Assembly (NCBI RefSeq): GCF_900186535.1
Contig: NZ_FYDE01000004.1
Location: 310,001 to 374,000 of the forward strand
Source of the DNA: Marasmitruncus massiliensis
GTDB lineage: Bacteria > Bacillota > Clostridia > Oscillospirales > Ruminococcaceae
Length of the DNA: 64,000 nucleotides
Direction of reading: 5' to 3'
Below the pieces are notes generated by a model, which saw nothing but the letters and a program-made list of their open reading frames with translations, was not told where the DNA came from and searched no databases. Both the position numbers and the translations under genes were made by a program. This document shows, in pieces, positions 34,195 to 43,024 of this stretch (within the stretch, counting starts at the first letter, position 1; every line of letters starts with the position of its first letter).

Positions 34195-34665
34195 ATGAAA
34201 AAACTAGTGGCTGGTGTATTGGCTGCTGTGGCTTGCATGATGATGTTTTCTGCCTGTGGAAAAGGCAGCACCCAGAAAGAGCCGGCGACTGCCGATGTGG
34301 CAAAGGCGGTAGTGGATCAGCTTACTTTCCGTGACGAGCTGATGGTGCTGGATGATAAGCAGGTGGATGTGATCTATCGGCTGGAAGAAGACAAAATTGC
34401 CGAAAAGACCTGCTATGTAAGCGGTTCGCGCGCAACAGCTGAAGAGGTGTCCGTTTTTAAGGTGAAAGATACCGCTGATGTCCAGATGGTGAAAGACGCA
34501 ATTGAGGAACGAATTGAAGACCAAAAAATAGCCTATGAAAATTATGTCCCCGAAGAGATGGTCAAAATCAATGGCGCAGTGACATATCAGCAGGGAAACT
34601 ATGTGATTCTGGTAATGGCTGATGATACTTCTTCAGTGGAAGACATTTTTAAGAAGCAATTTTGA
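34195..34665 (+). CDS. DUF4358-family lipoprotein
   Basis: 156 residues with a lipoprotein signal: VLAAVACMMMFSACGKG, the lipobox ending in Cys21. The mature part contains VDQLTFRDELMVLDDKQVDV, which marks DUF4358, and FKVKDTADVQMVKDAIEERI. Function unknown; the family often accompanies SGNH hydrolases and polysaccharide O-acyltransferases, so a partner role for the preceding enzyme at the outer membrane face is likely. RBS AAGGAG. Confidence 0.85.
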   Translation: MKKLVAGVLAAVACMMMFSACGKGSTQKEPATADVAKAVVDQLTFRDELMVLDDKQVDVIYRLEEDKIAEKTCYVSGSRATAEEVSVFKVKDTADVQMVKDAIEERIEDQKIAYENYVPEEMVKINGAVTYQQGNYVILVMADDTSSVEDIFKKQF

Positions 34666-34681
34666 AGGTTCAACCTATCCT

Positions 34682-34709
34682 AACGCCGGATTGATTCCGG
34701 CGTTTTTTC
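34682..34709 (+). terminator. Terminator of the SGNH-DUF4358 operon
   Basis: AACGCCGGA / TCCGGCGTT followed by TTTTTCTTTT. Confidence 0.9.
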
Positions 34710-34809
34710 TTTTAATTTCTGGTATTTTGCCTGATTCCACTGTATTTGACCAATTAAAACGATTTTGGTCGTTTATAGATAATTATTGCAGAATATCTAT
34801 GAAATACGC

Positions 34810-34837
34810 TTGCATTCAGATGATTATATGCTATAAT
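34810..34837 (+). promoter_or_regulatory. corA promoter
   Basis: TTGCAT (34810-34815) and TATAAT (34832-34837), 16-base spacer. Transcription would begin near 34844, giving a leader of about 180 bases before corA. A 5' hairpin (AGGCG 34843-34847 / CGCCT 34874-34878 enclosing ATGGGA/TCCCAT) sits at the predicted RNA start. Confidence 0.65.
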
Positions 34838-34902
34838 AAATAAGGCGTATATGGGAATGCTCCCATTATAAAGCGCCTCATTTAAATTTTGGAGGTGTAG
34901 AT

Positions 34903-34992
34903 GTGAACCCTGACCCGGGAAGTATAAATGCTCCCAGTACGATCAGATTTAGTCAAAAATTCAATATGGGCAGGGGATTCGTCACACCGTAG
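34903..34992 (+). CDS. Putative 29-residue leader peptide of corA (MNPDP start)
   Basis: GTG 34903 follows a strong GGAGG (34891-34895) by seven bases and opens a 29-codon frame ending TAG 34990-34992. The peptide starts Met-Asn-Pro-Asp-Pro-Gly-Ser and ends GRGFVTP. A Pro/acidic start of this type in E. coli MgtL (MEPDP) destabilises the translating ribosome when magnesium is low. Its last seven codons overlap the first arm of the antisequestering hairpin in front of corA. Alternatively the frame is fortuitous, but the ribosome binding site, position and sequence all argue for a regulatory uORF. An ATG-TGA minimal ORF overlaps at 34901. Confidence 0.6.
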   Translation: MNPDPGSINAPSTIRFSQKFNMGRGFVTP

Positions 34993-35015
34993 CACCATCC
35001 CCTGCGAAAGGGGAT
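34970..35015 (+). promoter_or_regulatory. Mutually exclusive hairpins controlling the corA ribosome binding site
   Basis: Arm 1 GCAGGGGAT (34970-34978) can pair with arm 2 ATCCCCTGC (34997-35005) over nine bases. Arm 2 can instead pair through ATCCCC (34997-35002) with arm 3 GGGGAT (35010-35015). Arm 3 contains the corA Shine-Dalgarno AAAGGGG (35007-35013), nine bases before ATG 35023. Arm 1 lies in the end of the leader ORF, whose stop falls in the loop between arms 1 and 2. Translation to the stop would mask arm 1 and close the sequestering hairpin. Confidence 0.6.
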
Positions 35016-35022
35016 AAGTGCG

Positions 35023-35958
35023 ATGCTTAACTTTTATAAAACTGTTGACAATCGTATTATCAGAATCGACGCGCCGGAACCTGGCTGCTGGATATCGGTC
35101 GTCAGTCCCGTAGAATCGGAGGTAGCATTTTTAACCAAAGATTTGGGGGTAGAAGCCGATTTTGTCCGTGCTGCCCTTGATGAAGAGGAAAGCTCCCGTA
35201 TCGAAACGGAAAACGGCCAGACGCTGGTGATTATCGACTATCCGTCTGCCGAGGAACAAGCGGATGAAAACAAAACGATTTTATATACGACGCTTCCAAT
35301 GGGCATTATTATGACGCGTGACTATGTGATTACGGTTTGCATTGAGGATAATCTAACGATTGAGGACATGGCACAGGGCCGGGTAAAAGCTCTGCAAACC
35401 TCTTTGAAAACCCGTTTTCTATTATTAACGCTGTTAAAAATCGCTACAAGGTTTCTGCAATACCTCAAGCAGATCGATAAGATTTCTTCATCCACCGAGC
35501 AGCGGCTGCATCAGTCGATGCGGAATAAAGAATTGATTCAGTTGCTTGGACTGGAAAAATCGCTTGTTTATTTTTCTACTTCGCTGAAATCGGATGAAGT
35601 AACACTTGAAAAAATCCTGCGCGGAAGGATCATCAAACTCTATGAAGAGGATGAGGATTTGCTGGAGGATGTGCTGATCGAGATTAAGCAGGCAATTGAA
35701 ATGTGCAACATCTATTCAGGTATTTTGTCAGGTATGATGGATGCCTTCGCGTCGGTTATTTCCAACAATCTGAATATTGTCATGAAGGTATTGACCTGCA
35801 TCACAATCATTATGGCAATTCCGACCATGATATTCAGTTTCTACGGAATGAACGTTTCCAGCCTGCCTTTTGCAAACACGTGGTTTCCATTGGTGCTTTC
35901 CATCGCGGCATCGGCTATCGCAACGGTGATTCTGATGAAAAAAGATATGTTTCATTGA
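35023..35958 (+). CDS. corA: CorA-family magnesium transporter
   Basis: 311 residues, the normal length for Gram-positive CorA, a homopentameric channel for magnesium (sometimes cobalt or nickel). The cytoplasmic N-domain is followed by a long helix and two C-terminal membrane helices; the signature FYGMNV lies at the end of the first (LTCITIIMAIPTMIFSFYGMN), and the acidic/polar outer loop SSLPFANTW precedes the last helix. The tail KKDMFH is basic. The gene is monocistronic, with a complex leader containing a uORF and competing hairpins, and a terminator right after it. Confidence 0.95.
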   Translation: MLNFYKTVDNRIIRIDAPEPGCWISVVSPVESEVAFLTKDLGVEADFVRAALDEEESSRIETENGQTLVIIDYPSAEEQADENKTILYTTLPMGIIMTRDYVITVCIEDNLTIEDMAQGRVKALQTSLKTRFLLLTLLKIATRFLQYLKQIDKISSSTEQRLHQSMRNKELIQLLGLEKSLVYFSTSLKSDEVTLEKILRGRIIKLYEEDEDLLEDVLIEIKQAIEMCNIYSGILSGMMDAFASVISNNLNIVMKVLTCITIIMAIPTMIFSFYGMNVSSLPFANTWFPLVLSIAASAIATVILMKKDMFH

Positions 35959-40362: not shown

Positions 40363-42267
40363 ATGATTCAAGTAACATTAAAGGGCGGCGTCATAAAAGA
40401 ATTTGAGGCCGGAGTCACTGCGGCCGATGTGGCAAAAAGTCTGGGCGCAGGACTGTATAAGGCGGCTTGCGCCGCGAAAGTCAACGGGGTTACCGTCGAT
40501 CTGCGCACCCCTCTGCAGGAGGACTGTGAGCTGGCGATTCTCACATTTGATGACGCGGACGGCAAAAAGACGTTCTGGCACACCGCTTCCCATATTTTGG
40601 CACAGGCGGTCATGCGCCTGTATCCCCAGACCAAGTTCACCATCGGCCCGGCGGTCGACAACGGCTTCTACTATGACTTCGACGTCGAGAAGCCCTTTAC
40701 CCAGGAGGACCTCGAGAAGATCGAAAAGGAAATGGCGGCGATTGTTAAGAGCGGCATTGAGATCGAACGGTTTGTACTTGATGTGCCCGCGGCGAAAGAA
40801 CTGATGAAAAATCAGCCCTATAAGCTGGAACTGATTGAGAAACACGCGTCCGAGGGTGGCCCCATCAGTTTTTATAAGCAGGGCGATTTTACCGATCTGT
40901 GTGCCGGCCCGCATCTGATGAGCGTGGCGCCGGTCAAAGCGGTCAAGCTGATTCAGTGCACCGGCGCCTACTGGCACGGCGACAGCAGTCTCCCAATGCT
41001 CTGCCGCGTATACGGAACCGCATTCCCCAAAGCAAGTGAGCTTCAGGGCTATCTGGATATGATGGAAGAAGCAAAGAAGCGGGATCACCGCAAGCTGGGC
41101 CGCGAGCTTGACCTGTTCGACATCTACGAGGAGGGCCCGGGCTTCCCCTTTTTCTTCCCCAAGGGCATGGTGCTGCGCAATACGCTGGAGAGTTTCTGGC
41201 GCGAGCTGCATAAGGCGCACGGTTATGAGGAGATCCGTACCCCGCTCATTTTGAGCGAGGAGCTCTGGCACCGTTCCGGACATTGGGACCACTATAAGGA
41301 TAACATGTACACCACTAAGATCGACGAGAAGGATTACGCGATCAAGCCGATGAACTGCCCGGGCGGTATGCTGGTCTACAAGCGAAAGCTGCACTCCTAC
41401 CGCGACCTGCCGGAACGCATGGCCGAGCTCGGCATTGTACACCGCCACGAGCTTTCCGGTGCGTTGCACGGTCTGATGCGGGTACGCTGCTTTACCCAGG
41501 ACGATGCGCATATCTTCATGACCCCGGACCAGACCGAGGAAGAGGTGCTGGGCGTCATCCACCTGATCGACAGCATCTACAAGGTTTTCGGCTTCGAGTA
41601 TTTTCTGGAGCTTTCCACCCGTCCGGAGGACTCGATGGGTACCGGGGAGCAGTGGGAGATGGCTACCAACGCCCTGCGCAACGCCCTGGAAAAGAACGGC
41701 AAGCCGTACACCATCAACGAGGGAGACGGTGCGTTCTATGGGCCGAAGATCGATTTCCACCTGCGCGATTCGATCGGGCGCACCTGGCAGTGCGGCACTA
41801 TCCAGCTCGACTTTCAGATGCCTGAGCGTTTTGACCTGACCTATACCGGCAGCGACGGCGAGAAGCACCGTCCGGTGATGATCCACCGCACTGCCTTCGG
41901 CAGCATCGAACGGTTTATCGGCATCCTTACCGAGCATTACGCGGGCGCGTTCCCGCTCTGGCTTGCCCCGGTGCAGATCAAGGTCCTGCCGATCACCGAC
42001 GATCATATCGCCTTTGCAGAGCAGGTCATGGAGCAGCTGAAGGGCGCGGGTCTGCGCGTCGAGATGGACAGCCGCAACGAGAAGGTCGGCTATCGTGTGC
42101 GTGAGGCGCAGCTCCAGAAGATTCCATATATGCTCGTAATCGGCGACAAAGAAGTGGAAGCGGACTCGGTCGCTGTCCGTTCCCGCCGCGACGGCGACCA
42201 GGGCGTCATGAAAGTGAATGATTTTATGGCGATGGCAGTAAAAGAGGTTGCCGACAAAGTGAAATAA
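40363..42267 (+). CDS. thrS: Threonyl-tRNA synthetase
   Basis: 634 residues, standard length. Order: TGS domain (IQVTLKGGVIKEFEAG), the editing/SAD domain with HTASHILAQAVMRLYP and YYDFDVE, the class II catalytic core (MNCPGGMLVYKRKLHSYRDL, RHELSGALHGLMRVR, TQDDAHIF, DFHLRDSIGRTWQCGTIQLD, HRTAFGSIERFIGIL) and the anticodon-binding domain. It charges tRNA-Thr and clears mischarged Ser-tRNA. Much of the gene uses GC-rich codons more than its neighbours. Regulated by the upstream T-box. Confidence 0.97.
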   Translation: MIQVTLKGGVIKEFEAGVTAADVAKSLGAGLYKAACAAKVNGVTVDLRTPLQEDCELAILTFDDADGKKTFWHTASHILAQAVMRLYPQTKFTIGPAVDNGFYYDFDVEKPFTQEDLEKIEKEMAAIVKSGIEIERFVLDVPAAKELMKNQPYKLELIEKHASEGGPISFYKQGDFTDLCAGPHLMSVAPVKAVKLIQCTGAYWHGDSSLPMLCRVYGTAFPKASELQGYLDMMEEAKKRDHRKLGRELDLFDIYEEGPGFPFFFPKGMVLRNTLESFWRELHKAHGYEEIRTPLILSEELWHRSGHWDHYKDNMYTTKIDEKDYAIKPMNCPGGMLVYKRKLHSYRDLPERMAELGIVHRHELSGALHGLMRVRCFTQDDAHIFMTPDQTEEEVLGVIHLIDSIYKVFGFEYFLELSTRPEDSMGTGEQWEMATNALRNALEKNGKPYTINEGDGAFYGPKIDFHLRDSIGRTWQCGTIQLDFQMPERFDLTYTGSDGEKHRPVMIHRTAFGSIERFIGILTEHYAGAFPLWLAPVQIKVLPITDDHIAFAEQVMEQLKGAGLRVEMDSRNEKVGYRVREAQLQKIPYMLVIGDKEVEADSVAVRSRRDGDQGVMKVNDFMAMAVKEVADKVK

Positions 42268-42332: not shown

Positions 42333-43024
42333 AACTCCCGGCTGTGCCGGGAGTTCAAAAAAGCTTTAGCGATGAGTATAGCAAAAAACCTCCTTTTGAT
42401 ATAATGAAGCTGCGGTCTGCCAACTGCAACGAGACATATCAAAAGGAGGAACATTCGACATGAAGACGAATGATATAGATAGTTTAAATCATACGAGCTG
42501 GAATTGCAAATACCATATAGTGTTTGCCCCAAAGTATCGAAGAAAAGTAACATACGGAAATATGCGGGCTGAGATAGGAAAAATACTGAGGGAGTTATGT
42601 AACTGGAAACAGGTGGAGATCATAGAAGCGGAGGTGTGTCCGGACCATATACACATGTTGGTGAAAATACCACCGAAGATGAGCGTTTCCGGATTCGTAG
42701 GATTTCTCAAAGGAAAGAGTACCTTGCTGATATTTGAGCGGCATGCGAATTTGAAATACAAGTATGGAAACCGGACATTCTGGTGCAGGGGCTATTTTGT
42801 GGATACGGCAGGGAAGAATGATAAAGCAATAGCCCAATATATCAAAAATCAACTGGAAGAAGATCAGGTTGAAGACCAGATGACACTCAAGGAGTACGTA
42901 AACCCGTTTACGGGTAGCAAGTAACAAACTTTTGCAATTGGCAGACCGTACCAGCGCCTTGAGGCGCAGCTAGTAAAACAGGGCTTTGCCCGCATATGGA
43001 GAACCCCCGGCTTTGCCGGGGGGT
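42333..43024 (+). mobile_element. IS200-type insertion sequence
   Basis: About 0.7 kb, the usual IS200 size, with one HUH transposase gene. The ends are subterminal hairpins rather than inverted repeats: AACTCCCGGC / GCCGGGAGTT on the left (42333-42355) and AACCCCCGGC / GCCGGGGG on the right (43002-43022). No TnpB gene. It landed just after the thrS terminator. Confidence 0.8.
42460..42924 (+). CDS. tnpA: IS200-family transposase TnpA (HUH/Y1)
   Basis: 154 residues. The HUH metal-binding motif is DHIHMLVK (His63, His65), and the catalytic tyrosine should be in the C-terminal helix, probably the Tyr of IAQYIKNQ. The opening NCKYHIVFAPKYRRKV is typical. TnpA moves the element as single-stranded DNA at the replication fork. 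The frame is complete, with AAAGGAGG upstream, so the element may still be active. Confidence 0.9.
   Translation: MKTNDIDSLNHTSWNCKYHIVFAPKYRRKVTYGNMRAEIGKILRELCNWKQVEIIEAEVCPDHIHMLVKIPPKMSVSGFVGFLKGKSTLLIFERHANLKYKYGNRTFWCRGYFVDTAGKNDKAIAQYIKNQLEEDQVEDQMTLKEYVNPFTGSK

Follow-up and report, generated by a model that had tools for sequence, protein, structure and literature searches.

The corA gene in the 64,000-nucleotide stretch of Marasmitruncus massiliensis DNA that we analysed (the window) is preceded by a leader that probably acts as a ribosome-operated translational attenuator. A short upstream open reading frame (uORF), the peptide of which carries an acidic residue and a proline at positions 4 and 5, begins within the first of four RNA arms (A0 to A3), the last of which holds the Shine-Dalgarno (SD) sequence of corA. 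The acidic-proline pair would slow the ribosome while it covers A0, and low Mg2+ is the simplest signal for this delay, because chains with early acidic and proline residues translate poorly at low Mg2+ in E. coli and Salmonella, as is the case for MgtL. The peptide core, the mutually exclusive pairings of the arms and the co-variation of these pairings emerge from comparison of the leader sequences of related bacteria. The leader is present as a single copy in its genome, and its parts are listed in Table 1.

Table 1. Coordinates of the corA leader and its parts within the window
Feature	Position	Strand	Description	Basis
Candidate -10 box	34832..34837	+	TATAAT, with TGC just before it	sequence and likeness to four relatives
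5' hairpin	34843..34878	+	AGGCGT...GCGCCT, at the putative transcript start	folds
uORF Shine-Dalgarno	34891..34895	+	GGAGG	sequence
Arm A0	34894..34916	+	SD spacer, start codon and NPDP codons	folds
uORF / leader peptide	34903..34992	+	MNPDPGSINAPSTIRFSQKFNMGRGFVTP; GTG start, TAG stop, 29 codons; core M-x-x-[D/E]-P	
Arm A1	34968..34988	+	includes arm 1, GCAGGGGAT, 34970-34978	folds
Arm A2 (anti-SD)	34992..35005	+	includes arm 2, ATCCCCTGC, 34997-35005	folds
Arm A3	35009..35021	+	corA SD AGGGG and spacer; includes GGGGAT 35010-35015	folds
corA	35023..35958	+	CorA-family Mg2+ transporter, 311 aa	Pfam CorA, 168.9 bits, E 2.1e-49

The peptide core of the uORF and its distribution

The initial annotation had pointed out the GGAGG, the GTG at 34903, a 29-codon frame starting with MNPDP, and three short arms with the uORF stop between arms 1 and 2, all of which we recovered at the same places; the stop is the TAG at 34990-34992, and the peptide opens with Met-Asn-Pro-Asp-Pro. 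For comparison, corA loci were drawn from samples at four taxonomic levels (genus, family, order, class) as well as from named species, with the paralogous or duplicate loci L002 and L013-L016 excluded, and 250 loci were reduced to 214 by shared 12-mers. Among the loci are 80 stretches fetched for matches that had no locus yet, hand-picked for genus spread. The corA starts that the script had placed inside the gene in L143, L144, L164, L225 and L226 were left as they are and count as noise.

The motif was called when an SD-preceded ORF, at most 260 nt upstream of corA, begins with M-x-x-[D/E]-P. Such a uORF precedes corA in 128 of the 214 non-redundant loci, compared to a mean of 1.3 and a maximum of 5 motif loci in dinucleotide shuffles (n = 40) of the 214 loci, and the identical test, applied to the upstream regions of 370 other genes in the window and in the longer of the fetched loci, found the motif in none. 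The MgtL-like uORF in front of a Mg2+ importer that the initial annotation described is conserved, and the check on relatives that it had suggested for the uORF start finds the acidic-proline pair kept at residues 4 and 5 in the same 128 loci.

The distance between Met and the acidic-proline pair is two residues in these 128 loci, and each of the other gaps between 0 and 10 residues occurs in at most four loci. When Pro5 is present, residue 4 is Asp in 119 loci and Glu in nine, with no other residue occurring there in more than three; when Asp or Glu occupies position 4, residue 5 is Pro in 128 loci, and no alternative is seen in more than six. By contrast, residue 3 is Pro in just 56 of the 128 leaders, so that PDP, originally suggested as the conserved start, has to be given up as the core and only D/E-P is constant. 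An acidic residue at position 2, where the EPDP of E. coli MgtL starts, is present in only 13 of the 128 leaders. The acidic codon 4 is GAC in 103 leaders, GAT in 16, GAG in five and GAA in four, proline codon 5 is CCT in 66, CCG in 35, CCC in 19 and CCA in eight, and the uORF starts with ATG in 63, GTG in 51 and TTG in 14, these tallies being off by one owing to a single mis-started leader (L100). All four Asp/Glu codons, all four proline codons and three start codons therefore occur at the core.

Outside the core, the leader peptide varies in both sequence and length (11-66 codons). The uORF stop lies anywhere from 143 nt before corA to 116 nt inside it, and in 14 of the 128 leaders (with L100 corrected) it is found at +16 or later relative to the corA start. 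In Ruminococcus relatives such as L101, L102, L106 and L117, the uORF runs into corA in another frame and stops 29-116 nt after the start of the gene, so that its full translation would cross the corA start. An in-frame [CG]GA-AGT element (Gly/Arg-Ser codons) is located 3' of the D-P codons in 32 of the 128 leaders, at uORF codons 6-10 (34918-34923 in the window) and always in frame 0, compared to a shuffle expectation of 3.6; in the Ruminococcus relatives it is replaced by GGGCGAGCG. This element is perhaps an RNA structure or a slow codon.

In the genus sample, 10 of 11 genomes have the motif upstream of corA; the corresponding counts are 61 of 80 for the named contigs, 37 of 55 for the family, 37 of 46 for the order and 15 of 58 for the class, the samples sharing some genomes. 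The motif is thus sparser at the level of the class. Both Clostridia and Erysipelotrichaceae carry it, for example Anaerotruncus colihominis DSM 17241, Merdimmobilis hominis Marseille-P2769T and Angelakisella massiliensis, and the leaders of Thomasclavelia saccharogumia and Amedibacillus dolichus begin with MSPEP. In the wider phylum, the strict motif was found in at least four of 28 newly fetched loci, two of which share one peptide, a count that is a lower bound as several corA starts were set inside the gene; four further leaders of this set begin with MDDP.

The strict motif is missing in 86 of the 214 loci, 10 of which carry it once a looser SD, spacing or distance is allowed. A corA locus of M. 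hominis An559 (L119) is without the motif. Bacterium 1XD42-1 (L012 / L051) is the sole member of the genus in which no M-x-x-[D/E]-P ORF was found within the 260 nt from corA that were checked, perhaps as the result of a recent loss. Moreover, L190, L249, L110 and L121 possess other acidic-rich short ORFs (MADDVGR, MDEVPKVES, MADGVGHD) with no M-x-x-D-P, which may represent variations on this device.

Alternative pairings of the four arms

A TTGCAT (34810-34815) is located sixteen nucleotides 5' of the candidate TATAAT, and a TTGCAA-type box together with a TATAAT/TACAAT box is common to the relatives L003, L006, L008 and L009. To judge from these boxes, the transcript would start near 34845, upstream of the uORF. 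A promoter consensus scan yielded nothing at threshold before the corA leader, because TTGCAT poorly matches TTGACA. The 5' hairpin has counterparts in some relatives only and is absent in L009. If transcription started inside this hairpin, the uORF SD may become the partner of GCGCCTC (34873-34879); in the best fold of an RNA cut at 34845, 34873-34879 pairs with 34892-34898, where the uORF SD and the beginning of A0 lie, and the remaining A0 is still on A1. The sole terminator-like site in 34660-35100 of the window is at 34682-34704, 5' of the leader, which speaks against an intrinsic-terminator attenuator in the window.

Folding was thermodynamic, with the co-transcriptional order ignored. 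In the best fold of the window leader, A0 (34894-34916) pairs with A1 (34968-34988), and A2 (34992-35003) pairs with A3 (35009-35021); the alternative A1:A2 helix has nine base pairs, formed by 34970-34978 and 34997-35005. The region 34830-35040 is more stable than expected by chance (z = -4.19, with 0 of 200 shuffles equally stable), as to a lesser extent is the region from the putative transcript start (34845-35040; z = -2.82, 2 of 200 shuffles), and the 3' part alone (34928-35040) is ordinary in stability (z = -0.36). The switchable ribosome-binding-site hairpins described in the initial annotation do exist and co-vary, but there are four arms instead of three, and the sequestering hairpin is longer than described, with 11 pairs (GCAC 34992-34995 with GTGC 35018-35021, and ATCCCCT 34997-35003 with AGGGGAT 35009-35015).

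As a MAFFT alignment of 10 genus leaders misaligned the arms, swap tests and listed helices were used instead; in the swap tests, the pairing of an arm with its native partner was set against its pairing with the partner arms of as many as 60 other leaders. For A0:A1, the pairing energy is -20.9 kcal/mol with the own partner vs -14.7 kcal/mol with swapped partners (p 1e-17, 123 leaders), and the preference persists when A0 is limited to -10 to +3, 5' of the D-P codons (p 1e-14), or to the seven-base spacer (p 7e-10). The arm A2 likewise prefers its own SD arm (p 4e-11). For A1:A2, examined in 70 of the 123 leaders, the values are -15.4 vs -10.5 (p 7e-11), the arms in this test having been placed via their other pairings. 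The control sequence 5' of the uORF SD gave no co-variation in the swap test (p 0.93). Co-variation of the arms among relatives, which the initial annotation had put forward as a check, thus holds for three pairings.

The best fold contains both helices of the OFF state, A0:A1 and A2:A3, in 103 of the 123 leaders. Across this set, the two helices are mutually exclusive with A1:A2 (examined in 70 leaders), and the ribosome-binding site lies in the last arm. The sequences of the arms are variable; besides the coding motif, one G at +19 is kept in 102 of the 123 leaders.

Ribosome position and access to the corA Shine-Dalgarno sequence

According to folding models, the position of the ribosome on the uORF would govern access to the corA SD. 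In these models, a ribosome footprint was masked codon by codon along the uORF, and the cost of opening the corA SD was computed. The leader sets comprise 127, 124 or 123 of the 128 leaders, as the uORF start had to be far enough upstream; L100 was omitted from the statistics on ribosome and seven-base masking, and corrected for the swap tests. In the window leader, opening the SD costs 13.5 kcal/mol when the leader is free vs 3.6-5.9 kcal/mol with the P-site at codons 1-8. With A0 masked, the SD hairpin is still the best fold, the cost falling from 13.5 to about 4 kcal/mol and not to zero. A ribosome in the middle of the uORF leaves the SD buried in the model, and one with its P-site at codon 29 or the stop also frees it, at a modelled cost of 2.6-2.9 kcal/mol.

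The median opening cost of 124 leaders is 6.3 kcal/mol when free vs 2.8 kcal/mol with the P-site at codon 5, compared to 3.2 vs 2.9 kcal/mol once the sequence from codon 5 to the SD has been shuffled. Accordingly, the median gain is 2.8 kcal/mol in the real leaders vs 0.09 in the shuffled ones (p about 1e-17), and 46% of the leaders gain more than 3 kcal/mol vs 5% after shuffling. In the set of 127 leaders, a P-site anywhere from codon 1 to codon 7 frees the SD, the free value is regained at codons 9-19, and the cost drops again from about codon 20, where the footprint approaches the downstream arms. Masking of seven bases at a time in 124 leaders places A0 between about -10 and +14 relative to the start of the uORF. 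The first arm therefore overlaps the uORF start, and a ribosome located there frees the ribosome-binding site in the folding model.

We propose the following mechanism. In a ribosome-free leader, A0 would sit on A1 and leave A2 free for A3, which holds the corA SD, and corA would be OFF. A ribosome that initiates and lingers on the first uORF codons would cover A0, upon which A1 would take A2 and the SD would be released (ON). Once the ribosome has moved beyond about codon 8, A0:A1 would re-form and corA would return to OFF. The acidic-proline pair at residues 4 and 5 would slow or destabilise the ribosome exactly where A0 is covered, and low cytoplasmic Mg2+ would prolong the occupancy of the first codons, through pausing or through abortion and re-loading, to give more CorA. 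We infer that the uORF is translated, that the ribosome pauses at D-P and that Mg2+ is the signal, the last by analogy with mgtQ, MgtL and CorL and from the nature of the downstream gene. The sign of the regulation suits an importer, as the initial annotation had already argued.

The initial annotation itself had assumed three arms and another order of events, in which ribosome drop-off at low Mg2+ frees arm 1 for pairing with arm 2 and turns corA ON, and full translation masks arm 1 and turns it OFF. We regard this order as unlikely, although its arms are present and co-vary, and although the uORF overlaps the corA start in some relatives, where full translation should hinder corA; an inverse expression of corL and corA in E. 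coli (PMC11552253) would also agree with it. However, arm 1 is not free in the absence of a ribosome as had been supposed, but pairs with A0, and the empty leader is predicted to be OFF through A0:A1, with the corA SD buried at 13.5 kcal/mol in the window leader and at the median of 6.3 kcal/mol among the relatives. Drop-off of the ribosome alone would thus give OFF, and ON needs a ribosome that lingers at, or repeatedly re-loads onto, the start. Moreover, the ribosome at the stop codon, which had been supposed to mask arm 1 so that the hairpin forms, covers arm 2 (A2) as well when terminating in the window model (2.6-2.9 kcal/mol).

The same pairings would also allow a device made of RNA only, in which the loading of a ribosome opens A0, GACCC is kept for pairing, and the signal is the general capacity for initiation and not Mg2+. 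RNA pairing may indeed explain part of the conservation of the D-P codons, because they sit in A0 and Asp is mostly encoded by GAC (103 of 128), and the co-variation of A0:A1 is strong; moreover, a proline codon of mgtQ has been reported to count via pairing alone (PMC8092293). Nevertheless, the in-frame spacing from the start codon is fixed, Asp and Glu replace each other, and all proline codons are interchangeable. In addition, the six bases of the D-P codons are mostly unpaired in the free fold of 37 of the 123 leaders (mean pairing probability <0.5) and the codons are still present there, a result that is suggestive only, as the leaders had been selected for carrying GAN-CCN. A purely RNA-based device is accordingly doubtful, and the ribosome-operated attenuator with its acidic-proline chain remains our preferred reading.

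Relation to known Mg2+ leaders and implications

Destabilisation of the ribosome by the nascent chain is known to serve as a Mg2+ sensor in a handful of enterobacterial leaders. The system closest in architecture to the attenuator proposed here is mgtQ of Salmonella, an 8-codon ORF between mgtC and mgtB, for which stems 1:2 and 3:4 vs stem 2:3 were demonstrated by mutation. Loss of the start codon lowers mgtB translation, replacement of the acidic residues by Ala increases mgtQ and decreases mgtB, and mgtB rises when a silent change of the proline codon breaks stem 1:2; for ON, the ribosome has to dwell on the first codons, and its absence does not suffice (PMC8092293). As in mgtQ, the leader has four arms, with the ribosome-binding site buried by 1:2 and 3:4 and free with 2:3, a proline codon of the uORF is part of arm 1, acidic codons come early, and a Mg2+ transporter follows, the control being of translation, which is predicted here. 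However, mgtQ is an intergenic element within an operon of enterobacteria, encodes 8 residues with acidic ones at 2 and 5 (Asp2, Glu5) and proline at 4, and precedes a P-type ATPase gene, whereas the Firmicutes element is a 5' leader of corA with 11-66 codons and the acidic-proline pair at 4-5. Given its location outside an mgtC-mgtB operon and its acidic residue at position 4, the corA leader does not belong to mgtQ.

The CorL/corA leader of E. coli and Salmonella (PMC11552253) and the corA motif RNA (PMC6429828) likewise place a uORF and alternative structures before corA. CorL differs in being Rho-dependent and reportedly has one proline and fewer proline or acidic residues (PMC11552253), and the corA motif is reported from Gammaproteobacteria only (PMC6429828), whereas the present host belongs to the Firmicutes, and the leader is thus not a member of it. 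In MgtL, low Mg2+ promotes ribosome drop-off at EPDP, which EttA counters (PMC11282234), and the output is Rho-dependent transcription termination (PMC11282234, PMC11552253), compared to the predicted SD access in the corA leader. The D-P pair of the corA leaders may be a weak destabilising signal, because DPEE was the minimum motif for clear EttA dependence in E. coli (PMC11282234). The annotated record of E. coli K-12 MgtL begins with MEPDP, and its Asp4-Pro5 is at the same position as in the corA leaders. Both have an early acidic-proline pair at the same place and a Mg2+ importer downstream, and no further likeness was seen; MgtL has two acidic residues and lies upstream of mgtA, whereas the corA leaders usually have one acidic residue.

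Attenuators of four-arm geometry are used for amino-acid and antibiotic sensing. A leader peptide that senses charged tRNA-Pro or tRNA-Asp, the state of EF-P or an antibiotic rather than Mg2+ would share this geometry, and mgtP responds to charged tRNA-Pro (PMC8092293). We consider such a function very improbable, as there are only one or two early proline codons, next to an acidic residue that always occupies one early position, and the motif is found in none of the 370 other genes of the fetched loci. Least likely of all is a riboswitch that senses Mg2+ by direct binding to RNA, with an incidental ORF: stable alternative folds are present, and M-box (ykoK) and gammaproteobacterial corA RNAs are known elements, but neither the window nor a set of 20 corA loci gave an Rfam riboswitch match, the arms are variable with little conserved outside the coding motif, and the peptide core is conserved in frame.

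The M-box resembles the proposed attenuator in controlling Mg2+ transporters in Firmicutes, but it is a direct Mg2+-binding aptamer, which was not detected here: covariance models of the M-box, NiCo and the other Rfam metal riboswitches gave no match. The two matches above the Rfam gathering score in the window are both located away from the leader, the region 34660-35080 has sub-threshold matches only at a relaxed E-value (best 0.074), and the three Rfam matches in the 20 corA loci are two tRNAs and RAGATH-18. The view of the initial annotation that the leader is no known Firmicutes element is in line with the lack of any Rfam riboswitch at this place. Elsewhere in the window, an Rfam STnc490 match (42333-42445, + strand, 64.4 bits) follows a thrS-like ORF (40363-42267) and directly precedes a 154-aa transposase-like ORF (42460-42924); this site is probably the 5' region of an IS200-type element.

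A scan of 14 loci (17 fetched) for the leader in front of MgtE, with guessed gene starts, gave one weak match (M-x4-E-P) and did not support its presence there. Among 11 genomes of the genus Anaerotruncus, one has an MgtE match above the cut-off; because most of these genomes are without MgtE, CorA may be the chief Mg2+ importer of most Anaerotruncus. The genome with the leader also carries a gene for L31; in the MgtL system, bL31 and EttA counter the destabilisation of the ribosome at low Mg2+.

Searches of an open-access library and passages from three surveys of noncoding RNA yielded no description of such a leader in Firmicutes. What would be new is the phylum in which a Mg2+ transporter has a leader that destabilises the ribosome, and its place before a transporter family unlike that of MgtL and MgtQ, with a predicted output at the level of translation. 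On balance, we lean towards the view that these leaders form an undescribed Mg2+-sensing M-x-x-[D/E]-P class in several Firmicutes classes, in which the ribosome is the sensor, by way of an early acidic-proline chain that times a four-arm gate on corA; that the solution of MgtL and MgtQ was here reached independently or descends from a very old ancestor; and that many gut Clostridia control their Mg2+ mainly in this way. If the leaders work as proposed, nascent-chain Mg2+ sensing would be far older than the enterobacterial examples or would have evolved repeatedly. More than 100 natural variants, with the same residue positions and a free remainder, could then be used to probe the minimal Mg2+-sensitive nascent chain, which would be one acidic residue and one proline at positions 4-5. 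The leaders would also offer a natural reporter of Mg2+ in Clostridia and reveal a circuit that controls Mg2+ uptake in many gut bacteria that are still uncharacterised.
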